From Pseudomonadota bacterium (GTDB taxonomy: Bacteria; Desulfobacterota; Desulfobacteria; Desulfobacterales; RPRI01), in the NCBI GenBank assembly GCA_018817425.1, contig JAHITX010000007.1, forward strand, positions 62,001 through 126,000: 64,000 nt of DNA, read 5' to 3'. A program made the position numbers and the translations under genes. The notes under the pieces are model-generated. The model ran no database searches and had not been told where the DNA came from. It was given only the letters and a program-made list of their open reading frames with translations. Within the stretch, counting starts at the first letter, position 1, and each line of letters opens with the position of its first letter. Shown piece by piece: positions 27,192 through 43,546 of this stretch.

Positions 27192-27896
27192 TTGGCGCCT
27201 ATTATAGAAATTAAAAATCTTACAAAATCATATCGGCGCGGTAATCAGTCGATAATGGTTTTAGAAAATTTAACTCTTGATATTAATGAGAATGATTTTC
27301 TTGCTTTAATGGGACCTTCAGGTTCCGGTAAAAGTACTCTTTTAAATCTGATAGCAGGACTGGATAAGCCGGACAGCGGAAGCATTATAATACAGGGCAT
27401 CGATATTTCATTGCTGGCAGAAACCGAACTTGCAAAGTGGAGAGCCGATAATGTAGGTTTTATTTTCCAGTTTTACAATCTTATTCCGGTGCTGACTGCT
27501 TTTGAAAATGTTGAGTTGCCTCTGATTCTAACCAGACTTTCCAAAAAAGAGAGAAAAGAGCATGTACATACGGCTTTAAAGCTGGTTGGGCTTGAAGACA
27601 GGATGGATCATTATCCGGGTCAGTTATCAGGTGGACAGCAGCAGCGGGTTGCTATAGCAAGAGCGGTTGTTACCGATCCGGCTATTCTTGTAGCAGATGA
27701 ACCAACCGGTGATCTGGATAGAGTGTCTGCCCAGGAGGTACTCAATCTTATGGAAAATTTGAGCAATTCAATTGGAAAGACTATTGTAATGGTAACACAT
27801 GATCCAAGAGCTGCGAAAAAAGCCGGCAGCATAATGTATCTTGATAAAGGTATTCTTGCAGATGCTCCTCAAACTTCTTTTCAGGAATGCGTTTAG
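27192..27896 (+). CDS. ABC transporter ATPase (MacB/LolD type)
   Basis: 234 residues. Walker A G-P-S-G-S-G-K-S-T, Q-loop F-Q-F-Y-N-L, signature L-S-G-G-Q-Q-Q-R-V-A-I-A-R-A, Walker B I-L-V-A-D-E-P-T and H-loop M-V-T-H-D are complete. The start is TTG at 27192, 9 nt after the adaptor stop. It pairs with the first permease, whose start lies inside its 3' end. Confidence 0.93.
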   Translation: MAPIIEIKNLTKSYRRGNQSIMVLENLTLDINENDFLALMGPSGSGKSTLLNLIAGLDKPDSGSIIIQGIDISLLAETELAKWRADNVGFIFQFYNLIPVLTAFENVELPLILTRLSKKERKEHVHTALKLVGLEDRMDHYPGQLSGGQQQRVAIARAVVTDPAILVADEPTGDLDRVSAQEVLNLMENLSNSIGKTIVMVTHDPRAAKKAGSIMYLDKGILADAPQTSFQECV

Positions 27897-29016
27897 ACAC
27901 AAACTCAGAACCTTTCTTACAATCTGCGGCATTTGTGTTGCGATTCTTGCCTTCGGTTTGCTAAGAACTGTTATCAGCGCCTGGTATGCAGGAGTTGATG
28001 CATCTTCGGCTACCCGTCTTGTAACCCGTAATTCTATTTCTTTAATTTTCCCTCTGCCTATTTCCTACAAAGAGAAAATACGTAATGTGGATGGAGTAAA
28101 ACTAGTAGCTGCCGGAAGCTGGTTTGGAGCTTATTATATAAATGAAAAGAATTTTTTCGCAAACTTCACTGTTGAATCAAAGAACTATTTAGATCTTTAC
28201 CCCGAATTTGTGATACCTCCAGACCAGAAAAGCTCATATTTGCGAGAAAGAAAAGGTTGTGTTGTTGGTGAAAAACTTGCCAAAAGATTCGGCTGGAAAC
28301 TTGGAGATACCGTAGTATTAAAAGGAACAATTTATCCGGGAAACTGGGAATTTGTTGTAAAGGCCATATATAAGGGAAGCCATAAAAATATAGATGAAAG
28401 CCAGTTTTTCTTTCACTGGGAATATTTGAATGAAACCGTTAAAAAATTTGTGCCACGAAGAGCTGACCAGGTTGGCTTTTATATGATAGGAGTAAGATCT
28501 CCTGATATAGCAGCAACAACCGCGCGGGCGATAGATAAAATGTTTAAAAATTCCTATGCTGAAACACTGACGGAAACGGAAAAGGCCTTTCAGATGAGTT
28601 TTGTGTCTCTTACCCAGACAATTCTTACTGTAATAGAGCTTGTTACCATGGTTGTTATCGTAATTATAATGGTTGTTGTCGCAAATACTATGGCTATGTC
28701 CGTGCGTGAACGCATGAATGAATATGCGGTTTTGAAAACTCTTGGCTTCGGGGGTTTTTATATCACAGGGCTTATTTTAGGAGAATCATTGCTTATAACA
28801 TCTCTTGGAGGTCTTATGGGCATTATCGTGACATTTCCTGCGGCTGATGCCTTTGTAGGTGCTGTGGGAGATTTTTTTCCTATTTTCAATATTTCAAAAG
28901 AAACTATTTATCTTGATATTATTGCAAGTATTATTGTGGGAATTGTAGCTGCGGTTTTTCCGATCAAACAGGCGGTAACTGTTCCCATTGCAAGCGGGTT
29001 AGGAAGAATAGGATAA
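27862..29016 (+). CDS. ABC transporter permease, FtsX/MacB type (first)
   Basis: About 384 residues with an N-terminal helix (R-T-F-L-T-I-C-G-I-C-V), a periplasmic MacB-like core domain to about residue 260, and three C-terminal FtsX helices (V-V-I-V-I-I-M-V-V-V-A-N, then two more). The ATG at 27862 is chosen; a TTG seven codons upstream at 27841 is possible. Either start overlaps the ATPase gene (35 or 56 nt), indicating coupling. Confidence 0.88.
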   Translation: MLLKLLFRNAFRHKLRTFLTICGICVAILAFGLLRTVISAWYAGVDASSATRLVTRNSISLIFPLPISYKEKIRNVDGVKLVAAGSWFGAYYINEKNFFANFTVESKNYLDLYPEFVIPPDQKSSYLRERKGCVVGEKLAKRFGWKLGDTVVLKGTIYPGNWEFVVKAIYKGSHKNIDESQFFFHWEYLNETVKKFVPRRADQVGFYMIGVRSPDIAATTARAIDKMFKNSYAETLTETEKAFQMSFVSLTQTILTVIELVTMVVIVIIMVVVANTMAMSVRERMNEYAVLKTLGFGGFYITGLILGESLLITSLGGLMGIIVTFPAADAFVGAVGDFFPIFNISKETIYLDIIASIIVGIVAAVFPIKQAVTVPIASGLGRIG

Positions 29017-29023
29017 AAAAATA

Positions 29024-30190
29024 ATGGGGCTTTTGTTTTTTTATAGTTTTAGAAACTTGCTGGCAAGAAAACTTACCACATTTCTTACGGCTGCCGGGAT
29101 GTCTCTTGTTGTTTTTGTTTTTGCTTCGATAGTAATGCTTGCCGAAGGTTTGGAAAAAACACTCGTTGATACGGGAACATATGACAATGTTGTAGTTATC
29201 CGCAGATCCGCTGTTTCCGAAGTGCAAAGCGGAATAGAAAGACAGCAGGCTTCAATTGTTGAAACCAGCCCTCAAATTGCGATAGGAAATAAAGGACGTG
29301 CTCTTCTTGCAAAAGAACTGGTTGTTCTTATTACCCTTGAGAAGAAAGAGTCCAATACCGCGGCGAATGTTACTATAAGAGGAATTTCGGAAAATTCTTT
29401 AATTTTGCGGCCACAGGTAAAACTTATCTCAGGCCGTATGCCAAGACCCGGCACTTCGGAAATAGCTGTTGGAACGAGTATAGTAAAGGGTTTTAAAGAT
29501 ATCGGGATTGGGCAACCTCTTTCTTTTGGCATGCGGTCATGGAGAGTGGTAGGTATATTTGATGCGGGCAATACGGGTTATAGTTCGGAAATATGGGGAG
29601 ATGTTGAGCAGTTTATGCCGGCTTTCAGAAGGCCAGTTTATTCATCGGTTCTCTTTAGATTAAGAAAATCTTCCGAATTTGCGACATTTAAAAATAATAT
29701 TGAAAATGATCCAAGACTCACAGTTGAAGCAAAACGCGAAACCCAGTATTATAAAGAACAATCGGAAATGATGGCCCAATTTTTAAGGGTTTTAGGAGAA
29801 ACACTTACTCTCGTGTTTTCAATCGGTGCGATAGTAGGAGCAATGATAACAATGTATTCGGCTGTTGCAAACCGAACCGGTGAAATAGGAACCCTTCGTG
29901 CTCTTGGATTTAACCGGGGAACTATTCTTCTGGCTTTTCTCATGGAGTCTTTACTTCTTGGTTTGATAGGCGGAATTGTAGGACTTATTTTAGGTTCTTT
30001 TATGCAGTTTATAACTGTTTCAACAACTAATTTTCAGACATTTTCAGAACTTTCATTTAATTTTACGATTACATTTGAAATTATATATAAGTCGCTTTTA
30101 TTTTCTATTATAATGGGATTTGTCGGTGGAATACTTCCGGCATTCAGAGCATCGAGAATGAATGTTGTAGAAGCTTTGAAGGAAAATTAA
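29024..30190 (+). CDS. ABC transporter permease, FtsX/MacB type (second)
   Basis: 388 residues with the same layout as the preceding permease: an N-terminal helix (T-T-F-L-T-A-A-G-M-S-L-V-V-F-V), an extracytoplasmic core domain, and three C-terminal helices with E-I-G-T-L-R-A-L-G-F. The two permeases probably form a heterodimer. Gap to the previous gene 7 nt. Confidence 0.88.
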   Translation: MGLLFFYSFRNLLARKLTTFLTAAGMSLVVFVFASIVMLAEGLEKTLVDTGTYDNVVVIRRSAVSEVQSGIERQQASIVETSPQIAIGNKGRALLAKELVVLITLEKKESNTAANVTIRGISENSLILRPQVKLISGRMPRPGTSEIAVGTSIVKGFKDIGIGQPLSFGMRSWRVVGIFDAGNTGYSSEIWGDVEQFMPAFRRPVYSSVLFRLRKSSEFATFKNNIENDPRLTVEAKRETQYYKEQSEMMAQFLRVLGETLTLVFSIGAIVGAMITMYSAVANRTGEIGTLRALGFNRGTILLAFLMESLLLGLIGGIVGLILGSFMQFITVSTTNFQTFSELSFNFTITFEIIYKSLLFSIIMGFVGGILPAFRASRMNVVEALKEN

Positions 30191-30193
30191 TTT

Positions 30194-30838
30194 ATGAAAG
30201 CATTTGATACAGGAAGAAGGCAGGTTAATGTGTTAAAAGATATCAGCTTTCATGTTGAAAAAGGTGAGATTATCGCATTAAAGGGAAAATCAGGATCAGG
30301 TAAAACCACTCTTTTAAATTGTTGTTGCGGTCTGGAAAGCCCTGACAGCGGTAAAGTTGTATGTTCCGGCATTGATTTAAAAGCACTAACTGCTAAGCAG
30401 TTGTCAAAATTATTACGAACAAAAACCGGATTTGTTTTTCAGCAGGGAAATCTTCTTTCTTATCTAACCGTATCTGAAAACATCTCTTTTCCACTTCATT
30501 TAAATAATGAAACATCTGCCAGGATTAAATTAAGAGTTTCGGAACTATTATCTATTATAGGGATGAAAGATGCGCAAAATGCTTTGCCTTCCGAGCTTTC
30601 CGGCGGAGAGACCTTAAGGGTTGCTGTAGCAAGAGCACTTTCCCATAAACCTGAAATGCTTTTTGCAGATGAACCTACTGCAAGTCTTGATACTGCCACA
30701 GGAAAATCAGTTTTATCTCTGATACGGGATCTTAGCCGTATGCAGAAAAGCACGGTAGTATTTTCAACACATGATCCTGAATTATTATCAATGGCCGATC
30801 TGGTTTTTGAACTAAAAGACGGTGAGTTAAGTTATTGA
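30194..30838 (+). CDS. ABC transporter ATPase, second, short N-terminus
   Basis: 214 residues with Walker A G-K-S-G-S-G-K-T-T, Q-loop F-Q-Q-G-N, signature L-S-G-G-E-T-L-R-V-A-V-A-R-A, Walker B M-L-F-A-D-E-P-T and H-loop S-T-H-D. The permease stop TAA (30188-30190) is in the same frame two codons upstream, so the start cannot be moved back. The usual first beta strand and much of the A-loop region are missing (about 10 residues). The motifs are otherwise intact, so it may still work, perhaps in a heterodimer with the first ATPase. Confidence 0.88.
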   Translation: MKAFDTGRRQVNVLKDISFHVEKGEIIALKGKSGSGKTTLLNCCCGLESPDSGKVVCSGIDLKALTAKQLSKLLRTKTGFVFQQGNLLSYLTVSENISFPLHLNNETSARIKLRVSELLSIIGMKDAQNALPSELSGGETLRVAVARALSHKPEMLFADEPTASLDTATGKSVLSLIRDLSRMQKSTVVFSTHDPELLSMADLVFELKDGELSY

Positions 30839-31237: not shown

Positions 31238-32275
31238 ATGAAAAATAAAAAACAAACACGAAAAAGATTAGGCGCTTTAAGTATTGTTGCAATGGTAACT
31301 TTTTTTATAATTGCAGGATTTTTTGCTTTTGAACTCTATGTCATATCTGCCCGGCAAGGTTCAGATGCACCACTTCCTTCCAACTTCGGCAATTTTATTA
31401 AAAATCGGGAGAGTTTGGAAAACCAACCTGACAAAAAGTCTTTTTCATTTGCGGTGATAGGAGATACAAGAAGTGTTGGTACCTTTGAACGACTGGCGGA
31501 AAAGCTGCGGGTTCTTCCAATAGATTTTGCAGTTTTACTGGGTGACTGTGCTGACAATGCAACAGAAGATGATCACCGGTATTTCCGGGCGGAATGTGCG
31601 GAGGAATTTTCTATGCCTTTTCCCGTTTTTTACGTGCCGGGAAATCACGATGTTAATGAGAAAAGCTTTCCGATTATGCGTTTTGAGCATGACTACGGGC
31701 CCAGTATTTTTAGCTTTGAATACCAGCACTGTCTTTTTATTTTTCTTCGCATTCTTGGAGAAACCTATCCCAGTCAGGAAAGTATAGATTTTCTTAATAA
31801 AATGCCGGAAGAACATATTTTAAAATTTAAGAAACGATTTGTTTTTATGCATATCCCTCCTCCGGTCAGCAGCGTCTTTTCTTCTAAAATGTTTGATAAA
31901 AGTGATGAATTGATCTCACTTTTTAAAAAAAAGAGAATTGATTATGTATTGGCGGGTGACTACCACGGCTATGCGCGAATAAATACCGGGCAAACAAATT
32001 ATATCATAACCGGTGGCGGTGGAGCACATCTGCATGAGGATAAACATAAGCAATTTAATCATGCCATTGTAATCACTATTGACAAGGATGAGGAGTCTGA
32101 GTGGATTCTTCCTGTGAATGCATCAGTTGATATTGAAGACAAGATAGAAAAATATGCCATAGAACGGGTCTGGCCTTATTTTTCAGGAAATATGTTGTTT
32201 ACATATACGTTGAATGTATTTGCTTTGCTTGTTATGAGCTTAGCTGTATGGTTAATTATCAGATACAGGAAATAA
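31238..32275 (+). CDS. Membrane-anchored calcineurin-like metallophosphoesterase
   Basis: 345 residues with an N-terminal (about 15-37) and a C-terminal (about 320-342) transmembrane helix enclosing a phosphoesterase domain. Metal motifs: A-V-I-G-D-T-R, L-L-G-D-C-A-D, P-G-N-H-D-V-N, M-H-I-P and A-G-D-Y-H-G-Y. With both ends in the membrane, the catalytic domain should face the periplasm (inference from the charges at the N-terminus). Substrate unknown. It lies 120 nt upstream of the giant transporter gene. Confidence 0.85.
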   Translation: MKNKKQTRKRLGALSIVAMVTFFIIAGFFAFELYVISARQGSDAPLPSNFGNFIKNRESLENQPDKKSFSFAVIGDTRSVGTFERLAEKLRVLPIDFAVLLGDCADNATEDDHRYFRAECAEEFSMPFPVFYVPGNHDVNEKSFPIMRFEHDYGPSIFSFEYQHCLFIFLRILGETYPSQESIDFLNKMPEEHILKFKKRFVFMHIPPPVSSVFSSKMFDKSDELISLFKKKRIDYVLAGDYHGYARINTGQTNYIITGGGGAHLHEDKHKQFNHAIVITIDKDEESEWILPVNASVDIEDKIEKYAIERVWPYFSGNMLFTYTLNVFALLVMSLAVWLIIRYRK

Positions 32276-32395: not shown

Positions 32396-35300
32396 ATGGC
32401 ACAGGATAAAAAACTCGGAACTTTCGGTGGAGTATTCACGCCTTCAATCTTAACTATTCTTGGCGTTATAATGTATATGCGCCTGCCCTGGATTGTAGGA
32501 CAGGCCGGATTTGTTCTTACGCTTGGCATTATACTGGTGGCACATATTGTTTCCATATGCACAGGTCTCAGTGTTTCATCCATAGCAACCGATAAAAAAG
32601 TAAAGGCCGGCGGAACCTACTATATAATTTCCCGAAGTATAGGTCTCTCTATCGGCGGAACGCTTGGTATTGCACTTTTTTTTGGAATGTCATTAAGCAT
32701 TAGTTTGTATTTAATAGGCTTTTCCGAAAGTTTTTTAGGGTTTTGGGGTCTGCCGATTACAAAAGATACAATCCGGTTTACCGGAACTATAGCTATTATC
32801 CTTGTAGGCACTTTGGTTATGATCAGTACTTCTCTGGCAATAAAAACGCAATATATTATTATGACTACGATTGTCTTGTCCCTTCTTACCATTCTTTTCG
32901 GAAAAGGCGATTTTGCACCGGCAAAACCTCTTATTAATCCAGTGACAACTTCTGTTCCACTTATCATGCTGTTTGCTATTTATTTCCCGGCTGTAACAGG
33001 CTTTGAGGCTGGGGTATCAATGTCAGGAGACCTTAAAGATCCAAAAAAATCTATTCCCATTGGAACAATAAGCGCCATTGCCTTAGGTTTGCTTGTTTAT
33101 ATTGGTCTTGCAGCATTTTTTTCTTTCCGGATTAATTCCGACCAGTTGGTGAACAATCCGAATATTTTACTTGAATTATCATTTTATTCACCTCTGCTTG
33201 TAGCCGGCATTTGGGGAGCAACATTATCTTCTGCTATAGGCAGTATATTAGGAGCGCCCCGTATTCTACAGGCAACATCATCAGACGGAATTACACCCCG
33301 TATTTTTGCCAAAGGCTACGGTAAGACAAATGAACCGCGAAATGCCCTTATACTGTCTTTTATAATAGCGGAAGCAGGCATTCTTATAGGGGAGTTGAAT
33401 CTGATAGCAAGAGTAGTGTCAATGTTTTTTATCACCACATACGGCTTTTTAAATTTAAGCTGTGCCATAGAAAAATGGGCAAGTACGGATTTTCTGCCTT
33501 CCTTTAAAATCCCGGCCTGGGTAAGCATTATCGGAGCAGTAGTATGTTTTATCTTAATGCTTGAACTGGATTTTATAGCTCTGATAGGTGCGGTTATTAT
33601 TATGAGTTCCATATTTCTTTTTCTTAAGAAAAAAGAACTGACACTGGATTCAGGCGATACATGGGAAGGTGTCTGGTCTTCCATATTAAGATACGGACTA
33701 AACCATCTTGATCGTACTGTTAAACAACAGAGAAACTGGCGCCCTAATATTGTTCTTTTCAGCGGTGGGACAGTAGCTCGCCCCCATTTGCTGGAATTTG
33801 GCCGCTGGCTTGTACATAAGCGCGGAATTATTTCTAATTTTAATTTGGTCGAAAACAAGAATGTCAGTCATATTATCCCCAAAGTTCAGCAAACGCTTAA
33901 TGAAAATGATTTCGAATTTTCCGGTATCTTTACAAGGCATATGGAAGTAAACGATATTTATGAAGGAATGGAAACCATAACTAAAGTATATGGCTTTTCC
34001 GGTATCGAGCCTAATTCGGTTATGCTCGGCTGGGCGCGAACTAGTAAGCAACCCGAAAAATTTGCCCAGGTGATAAAAAGTTTCAAAAATCTTGATTATA
34101 ATATTTTTCTGCTCGACTACCATTTTGAAAAAGGGTTTGGTTCTCATAAAACAATAGATCTATGGTGGGGCGGCGGCAGCAATTCGGTGTCTTTAGGGCT
34201 GACATTGATAAAGTTTTTGAAAATGACCGAAGAATGGGAAGACACAAATGCCAGAATTTTTATTATAAATGAAGATTCTACATTAAACGATATAATATAC
34301 AGAAACATAAATAATGTAATTGAAGAATACAGAATTGAAGCCGGTATAAAAATAATCAACAACAACATCGATCGAAGTTCCGTTAATGAAATTATTGCCC
34401 AAGAGTCTCAGGATTCGGATCTTGTAATACTAGGATTAACAGATGTAGAAAAGGAAAACGTTGCCCAGTACATATCGGATACGGATAATATCCTTAAAAC
34501 ATTGGGCACAGTCTTATTAATTCAAGCATCTTCCTTTTTTAAACCTATTCATACCGGGCTTGAAAGGGCGAAGGAAATTAAACAAACCAGAATTATGCCA
34601 GACAATAATATTGGTTATGATTATATTCCGCCATCGCTTGTTTTGCCTAAGAATAAAGTGCTTGCAGACAGTATGGCTGATATTAATACAAAAACAGAAG
34701 AAGCATTTGCCAGATATCAACAGGGTTCAGTAAAAATCATCCATGCTGAAAACCTTTTATTGTTAAAAGAAATCGAAAAGCTGATTGAAAGAAACATCAA
34801 TGAACTTAAAGAAGCTTTTCCCGATAAAAGTCATTTTGAAGTGCTATCTATCAAAAAAGCTTTGTCGCATACATTCAGTAACTATCTCTTTAACTCAAAC
34901 CGGATTGTTCAGAGTTTTCAGGATACTACACTGTTAGAGCAAAAAGATAGTTTGTCAGCAGGCCTTCAGGCGCTCCTTGTGGAATTACAAAAAATACATA
35001 ACGATAGCCCATCCGAATTAAATATATTTATTGAGTCTGCCCAAACTCATGAAATTGCAAACAGGACTTCAATTTGGGAAAAAATTAAGATAAAAAGTGG
35101 GGATATGGCAATCCGGCGTAAAATCCGGATGCGGTTATTTGCTAATACCTTAATAAAACAAATTGAACAGGATGTAGTTTATAAGCATCTACAGGCTTTT
35201 GGATTGCAAAACTACAACCTGATATCGGATTTACAAAAATTATTTATTTTCGTATCAGACAGTCTTATTAATATTGGGCTGGAACTTGAAAAAGATAGTA

Positions 35301-37528
35301 TAGATGAAACAATATTTGATCAGGAAATAACAAAAATAAAAGTGAAATTACAATCGGTTCTCGATAATTGTCAGAAAGACTACCGGAACTCATCGGATGA
35401 GCTGCGACAAAACCTTTATCAGATTATGCAGATGATGTCTATTGATCTGGAAAGTGCTAATGTAAACCGCATCATAAAAAAGAAAAATAAACAACTTAAT
35501 AAAATACGGTTATCTGATATACAATTGCAGGAAATTCCCGATACATGGTTTAATCATCAAAGATTAATCGTGAATTCATTGATTGAAGATTTAACCATTA
35601 AAAATTTTCAAAACCGCATAAATACTATTCTTGATCGATTCATCAATGGAATAAAATTAAGTATAGGAAATAATTTTTCAAGCAGGCTATATAAATTAGA
35701 GACAGACTTGAAATCGATTAATTCAGAAGAAAAAGAGGATATAAACTGGCCAGTTTTTTTACAGGGAATAATTAATCCGGAATCCTTATTTAATGAACTG
35801 CTTAAAGATATACAAGCAGCGGAAGAAGAATTGCCTGATACCATTGAACTAATGACGGAAGAATCATGTGAAAAAATTGAGCAGGAACAGTTCTGTGATG
35901 TCTTAATGTTAAATATCAATTTACTTCGCTATGCAGGTTTCCTGATCGAAACGGAACTTATTGATCCGCTTCGGCAACATATATCCGAGCTTTCCGGCAG
36001 TCTTAAAAAAACAAACGATATAGCTCAGGATGTAGTCAGATTTACAAATCATAATCTCTCGCTTTTATCTGATGCCAACAATGCCGATTCCAATGAAAAG
36101 GAAGTTCCCGATTTGTCAGTTATTGTAAAAAGCGGCCTTGACAGGATAAGCGCTGAAAAAAACAATATTGAAAAACTTCAGCAAAATCTCCAGGCAGAAT
36201 TTAAACGCCTGCTTGGCGCAACATTTGAAAAAATGAGTCCTTATCTAATATCAAAAACTGCCGGAGAATTAAAGCAAACTATCCGCACAAGAGAAAGCCG
36301 CAAAATATTTACACAAGCAGTAAAAATATCCGAATGGCTGAAAACACAGAGCAAAGATCTTGTGGTCAGGCTTATCTACCAAAAAAGCGAAGGGATTTTG
36401 TTTGCAAAAAAAATAAGCAGAGTTTCCGCAACTTATCAGACCGAAACAGGCCACCTGCTTGCAATGGTAAAATTGCTGACACCGGATAATGAAATAAACC
36501 GTATACTGCCTTTTTATTACAAACAATTATTTTTGGGCAACCAGATAATCGGCAAAGAATTTATAATTGATAGAAAATATGAAATGGATTGTGCAAAAAA
36601 AGCTATCGATTTATATCGCCAGGGATACAATGGAGCATTGCTTATTATAGGAGACAGGCACTCCGGCAAATCGACTCTTTGCAGATCTATAACTGGCAAG
36701 TATTTTGAACGCAACAAAATCTTTAATGTATTTCCACCTGATGGTGGAAGTATAGATCCGAATGAATTTAAAAATCGCTTAACAGACATGCTGAAACAAA
36801 ACGGTGATTATGAAAAGGCGTTCAATAATCTTGAACAAAACAGTGCTATTATCTTTCATGACATGGAACTTTGGTGGGAACGCAGCAGTAAAGGATTTGC
36901 CGTAATAGAAGAAATGATGAATCTGATATACAAATATGGTGATAAATGCTTTTTTATAGTAAATACAGGGAGGCACAGTTTTAAATTTATTAACAGGCTA
37001 AAACCGATTGAAAATGCTTTTATCAGCGCGATTGAATGCCAGCCGTTTGATTCTGAAGAGCTGCAGGAGGCGATACTGCTTCGACATCGTTCCACAGGCT
37101 TAAAATTTCAACTGGGCAGGCTAAATGAAGATTCCATTTCAAATTTTCGTCTTGCCGGATTATTTAATAAATATTTCGATATTTCAAATGGCAACGTAGG
37201 TCAGGCCATACATTACTGGATCAGTAATATTGTGAAGGTAAATCCGCTTACCATAGATATCAGAACTCCAATTGCTGCCAACAATCAGGCTCTGAAAAAA
37301 TTGAATATGGACTGGTTGATTACTCTTCAGCAATTTATGCTGCACAAACATCTTAGTGATATCCGGCTTAAACAGCTTCTTGGCGGTGACGAAGAAAAAA
37401 CAGATCTCATGGTTCAAGCCCTTAAGAGAAGCGGGATTATAAAGGAAATACGTCCGGGGGTCATGCAAATTAGTCCTTATATCCAACCTTTAATTACTAA
37501 TTGTTTAGAAGAAATGGATCTCTTATGA
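32396..37528 (+). CDS. SLC12-like cation-chloride cotransporter fused to helical and P-loop ATPase domains
   Basis: 1710 residues, no internal stop. Residues 1-425 hold about 12 transmembrane helices of the APC superfamily (G-T-F-G-G-V-F-T-P-S-I-L near the start, F-A-I-Y-F-P-A-V-T-G-F-E-A-G in helix 6). Residues 430-730 match the cytosolic domain of SLC12 transporters (N-W-R-P-N-I-V-L-F-S-G; E-P-N-S-V-M-L-G-W). Residues 740-1380 are charged and helical, with no family I recognise. Residues 1410-1710 contain a P-loop G-D-R-H-S-G-K-S-T-L at about 1420 and a Walker B-like I-I-F-H-D-M-E-L-W at about 1484, followed by an AAA/STAND-like tail. The likely role is electroneutral ion/Cl- symport with nucleotide-dependent control. 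The stop overlaps the MscS-like gene (ATGA). Confidence 0.85.
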   Translation: MAQDKKLGTFGGVFTPSILTILGVIMYMRLPWIVGQAGFVLTLGIILVAHIVSICTGLSVSSIATDKKVKAGGTYYIISRSIGLSIGGTLGIALFFGMSLSISLYLIGFSESFLGFWGLPITKDTIRFTGTIAIILVGTLVMISTSLAIKTQYIIMTTIVLSLLTILFGKGDFAPAKPLINPVTTSVPLIMLFAIYFPAVTGFEAGVSMSGDLKDPKKSIPIGTISAIALGLLVYIGLAAFFSFRINSDQLVNNPNILLELSFYSPLLVAGIWGATLSSAIGSILGAPRILQATSSDGITPRIFAKGYGKTNEPRNALILSFIIAEAGILIGELNLIARVVSMFFITTYGFLNLSCAIEKWASTDFLPSFKIPAWVSIIGAVVCFILMLELDFIALIGAVIIMSSIFLFLKKKELTLDSGDTWEGVWSSILRYGLNHLDRTVKQQRNWRPNIVLFSGGTVARPHLLEFGRWLVHKRGIISNFNLVENKNVSHIIPKVQQTLNENDFEFSGIFTRHMEVNDIYEGMETITKVYGFSGIEPNSVMLGWARTSKQPEKFAQVIKSFKNLDYNIFLLDYHFEKGFGSHKTIDLWWGGGSNSVSLGLTLIKFLKMTEEWEDTNARIFIINEDSTLNDIIYRNINNVIEEYRIEAGIKIINNNIDRSSVNEIIAQESQDSDLVILGLTDVEKENVAQYISDTDNILKTLGTVLLIQASSFFKPIHTGLERAKEIKQTRIMPDNNIGYDYIPPSLVLPKNKVLADSMADINTKTEEAFARYQQGSVKIIHAENLLLLKEIEKLIERNINELKEAFPDKSHFEVLSIKKALSHTFSNYLFNSNRIVQSFQDTTLLEQKDSLSAGLQALLVELQKIHNDSPSELNIFIESAQTHEIANRTSIWEKIKIKSGDMAIRRKIRMRLFANTLIKQIEQDVVYKHLQAFGLQNYNLISDLQKLFIFVSDSLINIGLELEKDSIDETIFDQEITKIKVKLQSVLDNCQKDYRNSSDELRQNLYQIMQMMSIDLESANVNRIIKKKNKQLNKIRLSDIQLQEIPDTWFNHQRLIVNSLIEDLTIKNFQNRINTILDRFINGIKLSIGNNFSSRLYKLETDLKSINSEEKEDINWPVFLQGIINPESLFNELLKDIQAAEEELPDTIELMTEESCEKIEQEQFCDVLMLNINLLRYAGFLIETELIDPLRQHISELSGSLKKTNDIAQDVVRFTNHNLSLLSDANNADSNEKEVPDLSVIVKSGLDRISAEKNNIEKLQQNLQAEFKRLLGATFEKMSPYLISKTAGELKQTIRTRESRKIFTQAVKISEWLKTQSKDLVVRLIYQKSEGILFAKKISRVSATYQTETGHLLAMVKLLTPDNEINRILPFYYKQLFLGNQIIGKEFIIDRKYEMDCAKKAIDLYRQGYNGALLIIGDRHSGKSTLCRSITGKYFERNKIFNVFPPDGGSIDPNEFKNRLTDMLKQNGDYEKAFNNLEQNSAIIFHDMELWWERSSKGFAVIEEMMNLIYKYGDKCFFIVNTGRHSFKFINRLKPIENAFISAIECQPFDSEELQEAILLRHRSTGLKFQLGRLNEDSISNFRLAGLFNKYFDISNGNVGQAIHYWISNIVKVNPLTIDIRTPIAANNQALKKLNMDWLITLQQFMLHKHLSDIRLKQLLGGDEEKTDLMVQALKRSGIIKEIRPGVMQISPYIQPLITNCLEEMDLL

Positions 37529-38247
37529 ATGAGTTCTTAAATATTGAGTTTTCGGGATTATCATTACTGATAGTTATTATGCTTGGGATATTACTTTCCT
37601 TTGCATTAAAAATTATAAACAAAACAATTATACCCAAGATCCAAAAGAACCGGACAAAACAATTTTTCCAGATTGCTGAAATACTGATATGGAGTGTTTT
37701 CGGATTTTGGGGTCTTCATATAACATTAAAAGACAGTGATTATTATTTCTTGGCTGTAATAAGTGTAACTGCCGTTATAGTAATCTGGCTTGGCTGGTTT
37801 ATGGCAAAAGACTTTATCGCAGGTTTTGTGCTCAAGCTGGGCGATAATTATCAGCCGGGCCAGCATATCATGCTAAATGAAATTGAGGGTGTAATTGTTA
37901 AAGCCGATTATCTGAATTTAATTTTATCATGTGAAGACGGAGCTGTTGCCAAAATTCCCTACAGCAAAATAAGTTCTGCTATCCATTATAAGATTCAGCC
38001 ACGGGACAAGACAACTTTGCACCGGTTTGATATTGAAATAAAAAAGAAAGCTTCGATAGAAGAAGCAAAAAACATGATAAAAAATGCTATTATGCTTTCA
38101 TCAGGTGCAAGTATTAAAAAAGAGCCGCAAATTAATCTTAAGGAAAACTCTGACGAAACCATATGGAAATTTGAGGTAGTAGCATATGCATTAAGCCCTG
38201 AGTTTTTTCAGGCAATTGAAAGAAATGTGAGGGATGCATTTAGTTGA
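37525..38247 (+). CDS. MscS-like small channel protein coupled to the transporter-ATPase
   Basis: About 240 residues. Three predicted helices are followed by an MscS beta domain (D-F-I-A-G-F-V-L-K-L-G-D-N-Y-Q-P-G-Q-H-I, then G-V-I-V-K-A-D-Y) and an alpha/beta tail. ATG at 37525 overlaps the preceding stop by 4 nt, so translation is coupled; the earlier in-frame start at 37501 would overlap more. MscS channels release solutes on hypo-osmotic shock. The tight coupling to a cation-chloride-type transporter suggests a volume or ion balance role. Confidence 0.8.
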   Translation: MNEFLNIEFSGLSLLIVIMLGILLSFALKIINKTIIPKIQKNRTKQFFQIAEILIWSVFGFWGLHITLKDSDYYFLAVISVTAVIVIWLGWFMAKDFIAGFVLKLGDNYQPGQHIMLNEIEGVIVKADYLNLILSCEDGAVAKIPYSKISSAIHYKIQPRDKTTLHRFDIEIKKKASIEEAKNMIKNAIMLSSGASIKKEPQINLKENSDETIWKFEVVAYALSPEFFQAIERNVRDAFS

Positions 38248-38305: not shown

Positions 38306-38430
38306 ACCAGGATTCGAGGGTTCAAGTGGTTGTTTATTAATTTTACAAACGTTAAAACATAACTGATAGGATTATTCATTATATTTTAAGCCTTTCACTC
38401 GAACCCTTGCATCCTTGACCCCTTGATCCC
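38306..38430. repeat. Inverted copies of a GGATTCGAGGG-type intergenic repeat
   Basis: GGATTCGAGGGTTCAAGTG near 38309-38327 recurs in inverse orientation at about 38397-38415 with 3 mismatches in 19. Further CAAGG-type units continue to about 38430. The second copy lies inside the 3' end of the MscS gene. The two copies can form a stem between two convergent genes. Confidence 0.55.
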
Positions 38431-39315
38431 TTTTTGGCACTCACTATTATCACTATAAAACCTGGTAGTAGGATATGCCAGATCAATTTCTTTATCTTTT
38501 CCGAAAGCATCCAGAATTGCTTCCCATATCTGTTGCTCTGTTATTCTTCTTTCACGAGGTTTAACAAGATAACGAAGAGTCAGTAAAACACCGCTGTCTT
38601 TGACTGATGTGTATACTATAGGGGTAAGCTTGTCATAAAATATAAAATACTTTTTTGCAGCGTTTCGTATCTGGTCCTGTGCGCCTTTGGAAAGGTGCAT
38701 GGTTTTGTCTAAGACAATATTATTTAGTATTTCCTTCGCCTTTTTCCAATTACTTTCAAAAGTTATAAGTACAGGAATTTCATTCCAGATATGTTCAAAC
38801 CCAATTTGGTAATTAGCCAAAGGTTCTCTTAATGCTTTACTGTTTGGAATATGAATAATTCTGCCTGTGCTTTGATCGGCATCTACCCAGTTCCCGATTT
38901 CAATCAGGCTGAACTGAAAAATCCTGATATCAATCACATCGCCAGCTACACCGCCAATTTCAATACGATCTCCAACGGAAAAAGGTTTACGCCAGATTAT
39001 AAATAGCCATCCCGCAAGATTCGCAATGGTATCATGCATAGCTATTGCGATACCGGCTGTTGCTAAACCTAAAAAAGTCGTTATTGAATCTATTCCTTTT
39101 ACCCATATACGTCCTATAATCAGCACCAATAGTACGGTATATGTGTATAAGATAAAACGGCGATAATGGTATGCCCGCCTTGCATCCGTAAATTTTCTTT
39201 TTACAACAAGATTCAAGACGATTCTGCCTATGCTAAAAACAATCAGAACAACAAGAGAAATTACTATTTTCTCAAACATCTCCGGAGATACTGAGATATA
39301 TTCGTTTAATTGCAT
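38395..39315 (-). CDS. MscS-family mechanosensitive channel
   Basis: 306 residues: three transmembrane helices in the first 110 residues, then the MscS beta domain (G-L-A-T-A-G-I-A-I-A-M-H-D-T-I-A-N-L-A-G-W, K-P-F-S-V-G-D-R-I-E-I-G-G-V-A-G-D-V-I-D) and the C-terminal alpha/beta domain to about residue 290. The last 15 residues (E-C-Q-K-G-I-K-G-S-R-M-Q-G-F-E) are encoded by an intergenic-type repeat and look like a recent extension. It converges with the operon at 32396-38247. Confidence 0.92.
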   Translation of the reverse strand: MQLNEYISVSPEMFEKIVISLVVLIVFSIGRIVLNLVVKRKFTDARRAYHYRRFILYTYTVLLVLIIGRIWVKGIDSITTFLGLATAGIAIAMHDTIANLAGWLFIIWRKPFSVGDRIEIGGVAGDVIDIRIFQFSLIEIGNWVDADQSTGRIIHIPNSKALREPLANYQIGFEHIWNEIPVLITFESNWKKAKEILNNIVLDKTMHLSKGAQDQIRNAAKKYFIFYDKLTPIVYTSVKDSGVLLTLRYLVKPRERRITEQQIWEAILDAFGKDKEIDLAYPTTRFYSDNSECQKGIKGSRMQGFE

Positions 39316-40531: not shown

Positions 40532-40546
40532 TTGGAAAGGAAACAA

Positions 40547-41854
40547 ATGAAATTTTCAAAGTGTTTTGGTTTGCCACTGTGTTTATTGTTCGTTCTGTTG
40601 CTGTGTAGTAGTGCTATTCATGTTCTTGCTATGGATTTACCTGAGGTGATTGATAAGACCAACTGTGGTCAGTATAAAAATCTATTGTTTCCTGCTATGT
40701 ATAATGCGGTTGAAAGAGGTGATTATGTTATTACGCCGGGGAATCTAAATTTTATGTTCAAACATAATGAAGATTTTCTATCTGCAAGCGCAAAGAATGA
40801 AGGTAAATTCGACATTAGTTCAGAGGGTTTTTTAATCGATAAAGCTACTGGGAAATATCCGATAAATCTATATGGATTTCCTTTTCCTAATATAGATCTA
40901 AAAGATCTCAAGGCAGGAGCAAAGATTATACAAAACTTCAATTACCAGAGATATCGTCTTATGGGATCAAGAGGTCAAATCAGGGTTATGTGGTTTGATA
41001 AATCCGGTGAAGAACGTTATGTGGGTGGATTGGATCAACGTCTTTATGTAAACGGCAGGCCACCCGCTCATCAGATAGAAAATCCCGACAACGTTAAGAC
41101 TTATGATATGCAAAGAGTTCTTGAGCCAATGAGTGTAAGCGGAACAAATACAATGGCCATAGTATATCTAGGGGAAAAGGAAGACAGCAATTATTCCTAT
41201 GTGCCTATTATTCGAAGGATACGTAAAGCTTCTTCAACATCAAGGTCAGATCCTTACATGGGTTCCGATTCATGGTGGGACGCAAATCATATGTGGTCAG
41301 GAAAAGACAGCTCTATGACATGGAAGTATGTAGGAGAAAGAACAATTCTTGTTTCTTTTACTAGTCCGGATATAGTTCCGGCACAGGAAATGCCCAATGG
41401 AAGTATGGCAAGGACATTTCCTTATACAGGTCGTCACTTCAAATATGGTTATGAAGACACAAAATGGAAAGGTGCATCATGGTCGCCTTTAAATATTACC
41501 TATGTCCCTAGAAAAGTATGGATTGTGGAACAAATGCCAAAAGATCCTTATTATAATTGGGGTTTGCACATAAATTATATTGATCAGGAAAATTTCATAA
41601 TTTGGTACAAAGAAGTATCTGATCCGGCAGGAAAGTTTACTACCTGGGCTACGTTTTTTACACACTATAGTGAATGCCCTAGCGGAATAAATAACATCGG
41701 AGATCGCGATGCTTCTCTTTATATTAATGAGAGAGAACATCATGCTACATCTACCAACTTATCGGCGGACCCTGAATCATTTGTCTTTATGCCTGCTTCA
41801 GAACTAGGGCGCAAATATTTTACAATTAGTAATTTTTTGCAATTGTCAAAATGA
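40547..41854 (+). CDS. DUF1329 family periplasmic protein
   Basis: About 435 residues. Signal peptide (M-K-F-S-K-C, hydrophobic core, cut near V-L-A-M). The mature part, rich in aromatic residues (W-W-D-A-N-H-M-W-S-G-K, P-Y-T-G-R-H-F, A-T-F-F-T-H-Y), fits DUF1329, which has a LolA/LolB-like lipoprotein-sorting fold. An alternative TTG start five codons upstream (40532) with AAGGAGGG is possible. Pairing with a DUF1302 gene is the usual arrangement for this family. Confidence 0.8.
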   Translation: MKFSKCFGLPLCLLFVLLLCSSAIHVLAMDLPEVIDKTNCGQYKNLLFPAMYNAVERGDYVITPGNLNFMFKHNEDFLSASAKNEGKFDISSEGFLIDKATGKYPINLYGFPFPNIDLKDLKAGAKIIQNFNYQRYRLMGSRGQIRVMWFDKSGEERYVGGLDQRLYVNGRPPAHQIENPDNVKTYDMQRVLEPMSVSGTNTMAIVYLGEKEDSNYSYVPIIRRIRKASSTSRSDPYMGSDSWWDANHMWSGKDSSMTWKYVGERTILVSFTSPDIVPAQEMPNGSMARTFPYTGRHFKYGYEDTKWKGASWSPLNITYVPRKVWIVEQMPKDPYYNWGLHINYIDQENFIIWYKEVSDPAGKFTTWATFFTHYSECPSGINNIGDRDASLYINEREHHATSTNLSADPESFVFMPASELGRKYFTISNFLQLSK

Positions 41855-41965
41855 AGGAACTCTAACTAATTTGAATTATATTGTTAAAGATGCTTTATGC
41901 ATACTGCTTTTTGCAGAATCGGGAAGAATTTAATTGCATTGAAGCTTAAAATAGGGAGAAAAGAA

Positions 41966-43546
41966 ATGAGGAAAAGAATTTTGTTTGAAACATGCTTATG
42001 CATGTTTGTTATTATGATAATGCTGGCAATTTTCTCTGCAAATGCTACAGCGAAAATGACTACCAGCTTTCACGGATATATAGAGTCCAATTTTGTTTTG
42101 CGTGATGCAGATGGTATTCAGTATGGTTTTTTTGATGAAGCTTATGGAGTACAACAAAGAAATACATTAAAATTTGATATTGATATTGAGCCAGATATAA
42201 ATTTTGGATCTTTTATTGTAGGAAAAGTTCACCTGACCTTCAGGGGAGCTTATGATTCGATCTTTGATCTTCGTTCAGAAGATTATGATATCACAGGTAA
42301 TATGGGGGCTTCGAGGTTTGATTACGGAGAAGATGATATCAAATATGAAAGTGATTTAAGAGAAGCATTTATCGATTTTGTCTACACAGGCGATTATGGC
42401 GGCGGCTTTTTCAGACCTGGAAGACAAATTGTTTCCTGGGGTGAGGGCAGTCTTGAAACCCTTCTCGATGTTATCAATCCACCGGATATGTCTTACAATC
42501 TTTTTTTTCAAAAGCCTGATGACGTTAAGACTCCACTCTGGATGGGACGTATAAACTACGATCTGCCGCGTTTTGCCAGTACTAGCATCAATTTTGATTT
42601 ATTATGGATTCCTGATATCAGGCCTACCCAGTTCGGACCTCTTGACAGTGAAGCCGGTAATCCGCAAGTTGGTCTGGAATCTCCTTATGTGAGTATAACA
42701 GCTTTTTCCGATTTTAAAGGAATTTTCAATATCCGCGAGGATGTGCCCACCAATAATAATGAATACGGCGCCAGGGTAAGGGCGGATATCAGCGACAGGC
42801 TTACACTTTCTCTTGTTTATTTCAGGGATGTGGTCAATGAACCTGGCATTTTGTTAGTTAATAAAGATAATACACCAACGGCAATCTTAACACACAATAA
42901 ACAGCATGTTTACGGCGGTTATTTCAGTTATCAATTGCTACTAGGCCGCTTTGAAGCGATTGTCAGAGGAGAAATTTCACGTTATACTGCTTATCCTATA
43001 AACCTTCCAAGATCTGAATACCATTTAAATCCAGAAGGAACAGGGACAATGACGTTTGAATATAGGCCGGTTACAAAGGCCTTAATTGCGATAGACAAGG
43101 ATCTCCGTTTGAAATGGCTTTCCAGAGATTTATCGCAAGCTTCATTTGAATGGTTGCATAAGACAATAAATGAGTGGGACAGCAAGTTCAGCGAGGAGCA
43201 TCTAGTTTCCCATTTTGAAGGCAACACTCTTATACCAAATACATATAGCAGCTCACGTAGATACGACCGCAGAAACGTAAGAGAGCAAGATGTCTTTATG
43301 TTTCGGATGAGGACATCCTGGTGGGCATCAAAATTGGTTCCTGCTATTTTAGTGGCATACAATCCGGGAAAGCACGGAGAAGGTGGAACCGGTATGACTA
43401 GATTTGCAATTAAGTGGAGCATTACATCCCAATTTTATACCACCTTAAGGTTACAAGCCTTTGTTGGAGACGATGATGCCAGTTACGCCTTTTCTGATGG
43501 CATATCAACTACTGAGGCATCAGTAACATTTGGATATGAATGGTAA
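41966..43546 (+). CDS. DUF1302 family outer-membrane protein
   Basis: About 526 residues. Signal peptide cut near A-N-A-T-A-K, then alternating beta segments ending in an aromatic residue (F-G-Y-E-W), as expected of an outer-membrane barrel. Y-D-L-P-x-F-A and R-P-G-R-Q-I-V-S-W-G-E-G are typical of DUF1302. ATG at 41966 is preferred because AGGGAGAAAAGAA precedes it; the longer frame from 41897 adds a segment before the signal peptide. DUF1329/DUF1302 pairs are better known from aerobic Gammaproteobacteria, often near lipid/sterol or RND genes; none is adjacent here. Confidence 0.8.
   Translation: MRKRILFETCLCMFVIMIMLAIFSANATAKMTTSFHGYIESNFVLRDADGIQYGFFDEAYGVQQRNTLKFDIDIEPDINFGSFIVGKVHLTFRGAYDSIFDLRSEDYDITGNMGASRFDYGEDDIKYESDLREAFIDFVYTGDYGGGFFRPGRQIVSWGEGSLETLLDVINPPDMSYNLFFQKPDDVKTPLWMGRINYDLPRFASTSINFDLLWIPDIRPTQFGPLDSEAGNPQVGLESPYVSITAFSDFKGIFNIREDVPTNNNEYGARVRADISDRLTLSLVYFRDVVNEPGILLVNKDNTPTAILTHNKQHVYGGYFSYQLLLGRFEAIVRGEISRYTAYPINLPRSEYHLNPEGTGTMTFEYRPVTKALIAIDKDLRLKWLSRDLSQASFEWLHKTINEWDSKFSEEHLVSHFEGNTLIPNTYSSSRRYDRRNVREQDVFMFRMRTSWWASKLVPAILVAYNPGKHGEGGTGMTRFAIKWSITSQFYTTLRLQAFVGDDDASYAFSDGISTTEASVTFGYEW

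Follow-up and report, generated by a model that had tools for sequence, protein, structure and literature searches.

A predicted two-gene ion-homeostasis unit pairing an SLC12-type transporter, fused to an AAA+ module, with an MscS-family channel

Background

MscS channels are usually viewed as passive, tension-opened valves, with the exception of MscK, which also needs K+. We know of no MscS-family channel that has been described with a dedicated AAA+ partner. Control of a membrane ion path by a cytosolic nucleotide-binding assembly is familiar from the Ktr and Trk K+ transporters, in which RCK rings act in this way. Human members of the SLC12 family, the salt cotransporters of kidney and neuron, are the targets of major diuretics. 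The roles of the side chains that coordinate K+, Na+ and Cl- in human NKCC1 have been described (PMC10043231), and MscK gating depends jointly on tension and external K+ (PMC9653487). No description of an AAA+/MscS system was found in openly licensed PMC papers.

The locus characterized here combines an SLC12-type transporter, an AAA+ module and an MscS-family channel in two overlapping genes. The components belong to known domain families; their arrangement appears to be new, and the function proposed below is a prediction from sequence.

Results and discussion

Organization of the locus

The window (the whole stretch of DNA analyzed, 64,000 nucleotides) contains a single intact ORF at 32396-37528 (+) that encodes 1710 aa without an internal stop. 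Its TGA stop codon (37526-37528) overlaps the ATG at 37525 of an MscS-like gene, forming an ATGA junction (Table 1). The initial annotation had read this 1710-codon frame as an SLC12-type transporter with a P-loop tail, translationally coupled to an MscS-like channel, and each part was borne out: the transporter by matches to AA_permease and TIGR00930, the tail by its Walker A motif and an AAA+ plus winged-helix model, and the coupled channel by the overlap and a PF00924 score over the cut-off.

Table 1. Positions of the parts of the fusion gene and its partner in the window
Feature	Position	Strand	Residues	Basis
SLC12 transmembrane domain	32396..33655	+	1-420	Pfam AA_permease, TIGR00930, phmmer to NKCC1
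SLC12 cytosolic C-terminal domain	33656..34495	+	421-700	TIGR00930, phmmer to KCC1/KCC4
Long-helix domain	34586..36451	+	731-1352	AF2 model, profile-profile alignment
AAA+ domain	36503..37300	+	1370-1635	AF2 model, match to ORC2 1w5t
Walker A GDRHSGKS	36650-36673	+	1419-1426	
Walker B region AIIFHDMELWWER	36845-36883	+	1484-1496	
Winged-helix domain	37301..37525	+	1636-1710	ORC/Cdc6 structural alignment, HTH hits in relatives
MscS-family channel gene, 240 aa	37525..38247	+		PF00924; family profile vs E. coli MscS 2vv5

A metallophosphoesterase gene (31238-32275, +) lies 120 nt upstream of the fusion gene, but is placed outside the unit because it is not conserved at this position in L029, the closest relative. 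A second, more typical MscS-family gene (38395-39315, -; 306 aa; PF00924 E 1.7e-14) is convergent with the fusion/channel pair, tail to tail, and is missing there in L029. Further downstream, a DUF1329/LolA-like gene adjoins a DUF1302 gene at 40532-43546 (+), perhaps with an outer-membrane lipid or export function. Two MacB/FtsX-type permeases and an ABC ATPase stand in series at 27841-30838 (+). An Rfam search of the window returned no matches.

The SLC12 domain and its ion sites

AA_permease covers residues 13-414 (E 2e-45), and the K-Cl cotransporter model TIGR00930 covers residues 3-688 (E 1.6e-107), with a score of 361 bits against the model's own cut-off of 953. When the SLC12 part was searched with phmmer, the match to NKCC1 (7d10) had an E-value of 3.4e-75 and those to solved NKCC1 and KCC chains lay at about 1e-75; the alignment to KCC1 and KCC4 extends to residue ~700. 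The fusion therefore has both parts that define SLC12 membership, the APC-fold transmembrane domain and the CCC C-terminal domain.

The ion sites are largely those of NKCC1. Seven NKCC-type K+, Na+ and Cl- residues are kept (NKCC1/window: Y383/Y105, P496/P198, T499/T201, A610/A275, S613/S278, S614/S279 and Y686/Y349) and recur in 27-28 of the 28 fused relatives, while N298 of NKCC1, which is Thr in the window, is the sole exception among the ion-site side chains checked. As the two TM8 serines mark Na+-dependent members, the protein is predicted to transport in the manner of NKCC and not of KCC. At the second Cl- site, the fusions have Glu (E204; window 33005-33007) in place of NKCC1 L502, and the surrounding motif is GFEAG, compared with GILAG in NKCC1 and mostly GFTQG in stand-alone SLC12 proteins from bacteria of the same order. 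This conserved Glu sits beside the second Cl- site.

The helical arm and the AAA+/winged-helix module

The SLC12 part is followed by ~620 aa (residues ~731-1352) of long helices without transmembrane segments. An AF2 model of this arm alone (pLDDT 80.8, pTM 0.72) consists of two repeats of long antiparallel helices and a short beta pair. No trustworthy match to the arm model was found among solved structures: at Z 11.0 for a designed helical bundle and Z 9.7 (rmsd 5.7) for a bacterial dynamin, the best hits score too low to be relied on for helical models and were rejected.

An AF2 model of residues 690-1710 (pLDDT 79, pTM 0.50) leads from the long helices into an AAA+ domain and a winged helix (1370-1710). 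Its best solved match is archaeal ORC2 1w5t (Z 16.3, 325 residues, rmsd 5.5), with Cdc6, NSF-D2, TnsC and other AAA+ chains scoring close behind. The ORC/Cdc6 alignment reaches residue 1020 of the tail model, taking in the winged helix, and relatives give weak HTH-family hits at this position. Neither Pfam nor NCBIfam contains a model for the module, which generic AAA models match weakly; nSTAND hits in some relatives are sub-threshold, and an ORC-like fold is the best fit. The initial annotation had named a tail that was not an NTPase as the outcome that would count against it; structure prediction gave an AAA+ module.

In the SLC12 class (29 sequences from several searches, two of them with the N-terminus cut), the Walker A pattern GxxxxGK[ST] retains its Lys in 27/29 and its Ser/Thr in 26/29. 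The Walker B Asp is present in 23/29, in the pattern D, L/M, E, with Glu at +2 in 26/29. The canonical hhhhDE, in which the catalytic Glu directly follows the Asp, is absent (+1 Glu in 0/29), and for this reason we describe the module as an AAA+ fold and not as a proven ATPase. Among the related proteins described below, the exchanger and soluble classes have a degenerate Walker B, and the Walker A Ser/Thr is replaced by Arg in 11 of 20 exchanger fusions. The module in the window probably binds ATP, judging from these motifs, and its capacity for hydrolysis is doubtful. A pure ATP-driven motor is unlikely given the atypical (SLC12 class) or degenerate (exchanger and soluble classes) Walker B motifs, which favour an ATP-binding switch.

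Relatives and family classes

A scan of 84,980 species genomes identified 15 full-length or near-full relatives, whose best segments share 35-80% identity; their records carry the labels Proteobacteria, Desulfobacteraceae, Bacteroidales, Neomarinimicrobiota and Delongbacteria. Full-length homologues thus occur in several phyla (30-80% identity), and relatives at 80%, 58% and 30-49% identity rule out a fusion confined to one genome or an assembly artefact. Two sequences, L031 and L041, are frameshifted, perhaps through errors in assembly.

Weak hits to the ATPase domain revealed a wider family, as they included proteins with the whole 350-residue AAA+/winged-helix domain, nothing of SLC12 and an abutting MscS gene. 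A phylum search with the tail only was nearly empty and a domain profile was needed to detect these members; a profile built from 23 AAA+/winged-helix domains found them in 84 of 237 genomes of one phylum and in 51 of 247 genomes of the phylum of Bacteroidales G450. From these two phylum searches 60 and 36 loci were sampled, to which 4 of the window's own order were added, and the resulting 100 loci were assigned to classes by profile and hydropathy. The family extends beyond the cut-offs used, since L053 and L054 (frames of about 430-450 aa in the window's own phylum, E ~1e-8) have an MscS-like frame nearby. ExeA-type P-loop hits (L047-L049) lack MscS and were set aside as seemingly unrelated.

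In 21 of the 100 loci, an N-terminal CPA2 Na+/H+ exchanger replaces the SLC12 part (PF00999 E 3e-17 and 5e-21 for two such fusions). A second exchanger-like gene lies tightly upstream in 15 of these 21 loci, and one such gene matches PF00999 with an E-value of 1.3e-7. A sister system of this kind, L085:5714-11613 (-), consists of an exchanger-like gene followed by a 1519-aa CPA2 exchanger-helical-AAA+ fusion and, unlike most, has no MscS gene. The remaining classes are soluble or short forms, a coil/TM class and one other polytopic form. Coil/TM proteins such as L046, L086 and L127 have a signal peptide, a long coiled coil and about five transmembrane segments before the AAA+ domain and are accompanied by a separate MscS gene. 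This layout resembles MscK divided into two proteins, with the ATPase as an addition; searched by sequence against the PDB, the coil/TM part matched nothing, the suspected MscK included. The polytopic form, L152:4489-8541 (+), is an AAA+ protein that begins with a polytopic part of ~11 transmembrane helices, has an MscS gene behind it and possibly represents a further transporter class.

Profile-profile comparison determined that the SLC12-class arm is homologous to and collinear with the exchanger-class arm (546 columns, E 1.6e-18), so a common tail has been placed on two unrelated transporter folds. A match over 454 columns links the exchanger-class arm to the soluble class as well. No match to the arm was obtained with the coil/TM class, which doubled as a negative control, and kinship between the two was dropped.

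The MscS partner and its pairing with the AAA+ module

The 240-aa product scores 25.0 bits with PF00924, and its family profile matches residues 32-241 of E. coli MscS 2vv5 (E 1.3e-9). As the profile alignment spans TM1 through the alpha/beta domain, with the three-TM core, the beta-domain and the alpha/beta domain all present, the sequence identifies this protein as a true MscS-family member.

An MscS gene lies directly downstream, mostly with a 1-4 nt overlap, in 28 of 29 SLC12-class loci. The one locus without it, L035, is an additional copy; the same genome also carries L032, which has MscS. In the wider family, an MscS gene is present in 99 of the 100 sampled loci and immediately adjacent in 98. 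By class, it adjoins the ATPase gene in 12/12 SLC12 loci, 20/21 Na+/H+ exchanger loci (with one more at 2 kb), 36/36 soluble or short forms, 29/30 coil/TM loci and the single other polytopic locus (1/1). MscS is not adjacent in the family loci L035, L085 and L167, and L129 has it at a distance of 2 kb. The link is independent of gene order: the order is reversed with the pair kept in L045, L081 and L225-L228, and MscS stands first in some soluble forms. Since genomes carry just 3-11 MscS genes, 98 immediate neighbours in 100 loci rule out chance adjacency.

Such pairs also occur on a plasmid: pLA3 of Novosphingobium pentaromativorans carries an AAA family ATPase gene followed, 2 nt apart, by one for a mechanosensitive ion channel family protein, and the two are annotated only by these names. 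A plasmid search with the window ATPase gave no matches.

The two proteins also appear to have been inherited together. Across 111 pairs, the ATPase and MscS trees correlate with r 0.74 (0.80 within the SLC12 class), a value reached in 0/999 permutations, and the SLC12 class forms one clade in both trees (support 0.998 for the ATPase and 0.946 for MscS). Shared vertical descent may explain part of this agreement. Stand-alone SLC12 proteins of the window's order served as a control: 0/15 have the ATPase and 2/15 have an MscS-like frame nearby, from which it follows that the channel accompanies the ATPase and not the transporter. These proteins, together with the transporter-less members, rule out that MscS is tied to SLC12.

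Had the parts always been separate in homologues, the initial annotation would have been contradicted; they were found linked in 28/29 SLC12-class and 99/100 wider-family loci, and the two-gene pair, sought elsewhere, is present in several phyla. The architecture seen by that annotation is real and the gating of ion flow that it suggested is a prediction, but its transporter-centred view was too restricted. What is conserved is the pairing of AAA+ and MscS; at least three different N-terminal parts can take the same place, the SLC12 transporter among them.

Proposed function

Based on the adjacency of MscS to the ATPase in 98/100 loci and the small number of MscS genes per genome, the AAA+ module and the MscS channel are almost certainly functional partners. 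It is also likely that the unit serves ion or osmotic homeostasis. We propose a two-gene ion-homeostasis unit in which the transporter-fused AAA+ module works on its partner channel, a reading to which we give an even chance. It is the best explanation of correlated trees, persisting order-reversed pairs and one arm shared by SLC12 and exchanger proteins, and of the facts that the identified attached transporters handle monovalent ions and that the NKCC1 ion-site residues are intact.

In the proposed unit, an NKCC-like Na+/K+/Cl- symporter domain would be joined by the long helical arm to a cytosolic ORC/Cdc6-like AAA+/winged-helix domain. The AAA+ part would bind nucleotide and contact the near-obligate MscS partner encoded by the overlapping gene, and ion binding or turnover by the transporter, together with the nucleotide state, would decide whether the channel can open. 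One complex could thus coordinate salt uptake with the release of salt or osmolytes. Other bacteria have, in place of the transporter, a CPA2 Na+/H+ exchanger (frequently alongside another exchanger-like subunit), a periplasmic coil/TM part or nothing. We infer a physical complex, nucleotide-dependent gating and the direction of transport; that the AAA+ part directly controls channel opening seems to us about as probable as its opposite, and it is rather unlikely that ATP is hydrolyzed and not simply bound. More broadly, and somewhat tentatively, the family may represent widespread nucleotide-controlled mechanosensitive channels, each an ORC/Cdc6-like AAA+ assembly docked on MscS with interchangeable inputs. 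With similar reserve, SLC12 and CPA2 transporters might feed into such an assembly through the one shared arm, and periplasmic sensors through other N-terminal parts.

Three other explanations were considered. In the first, regulation by the AAA+ tail is limited to its own fused transporter or exchanger, and MscS is an independent, co-expressed safety valve against the turgor caused by salt uptake. Overlapping genes do allow co-expression without contact, and the transporter's ion sites are intact, but MscS is equally tied to members that have no recognised transporter (soluble 36/36, coil/TM 29/30) and stand-alone SLC12 transporters lack such a pairing, making this explanation improbable.

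An ORC/Cdc6-like AAA+ and winged-helix fold, with weak HTH-family hits in relatives, would also suit a membrane-tethered transcription regulator that binds DNA through the winged helix and reads the ion or turgor state with MscS as part of the sensor. Mean net charge of the winged helix is close to +1 in the SLC12 class, falls to around 0 for exchanger and coil/TM proteins, and is accompanied by no conserved basic recognition helix. As winged helices often mediate protein contacts and this one has no consistent positive charge, DNA binding was given low weight and such a regulator is very unlikely.

Equally remote is an anti-phage or suicide system, with the AAA+ part as the invader sensor and channel opening as the means of depolarizing the cell. 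Layouts of a P-loop sensor and a membrane effector are known from prokaryotic immunity, but PADLOC gave no full-length match to a defence protein, only weak hits (E 2e-5 or worse) that cover no more than portions of the P-loop or HTH region. The module is joined to ion transporters whose ion sites are intact, and not to invader sensors, and an unsystematic look at the flanks noticed no defence genes.

The preferred reading, a unit in which the AAA+ module works on the MscS channel, would mean that many bacteria control turgor release by nucleotide and tie it directly to salt transport. The pairing of AAA+ and MscS on unrelated transporters points to an undescribed control of cell salt and pressure. 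It would also give SLC12 proteins a bacterial setting where a single polypeptide may contain both the transporter and its regulation, and would make the coordination of ion uptake and release inside one complex testable.

Comparison with known systems

The fusion shares its transmembrane and C-terminal domains and the NKCC1 ion-site residues with SLC12 cotransporters such as NKCC1 and the Methanosarcina CCC, but differs from them in ~1000 additional residues (helical arm, AAA+ and winged helix), a coupled channel and a Glu at the NKCC1 L502 position. Its partner has the three-TM core and the beta and alpha/beta domains of MscS, YnaI, MscK and MscM; in contrast to these channels, the proposed regulator is a separate protein. 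With ORC/Cdc6, TnsC and related initiator-type ATPases, the family has in common an AAA+ fold and a C-terminal winged helix, while its fusion to membrane transporters, pairing with a channel, atypical Walker B and lack of consistent DNA-binding charge set it apart. The exchanger class has the same N-terminal part as CPA2 Na+(K+)/H+ exchangers such as Kef, to which it adds the helical and AAA+ tail, a downstream MscS gene and, frequently, another exchanger-like gene on the upstream side. The proposed unit resembles Ktr and Trk in having a cytosolic nucleotide-binding assembly control a membrane ion path; RCK domains are Rossmann folds and not AAA+, and Ktr and Trk have no MscS channel, which here stands beside the AAA+ module in nearly every locus.
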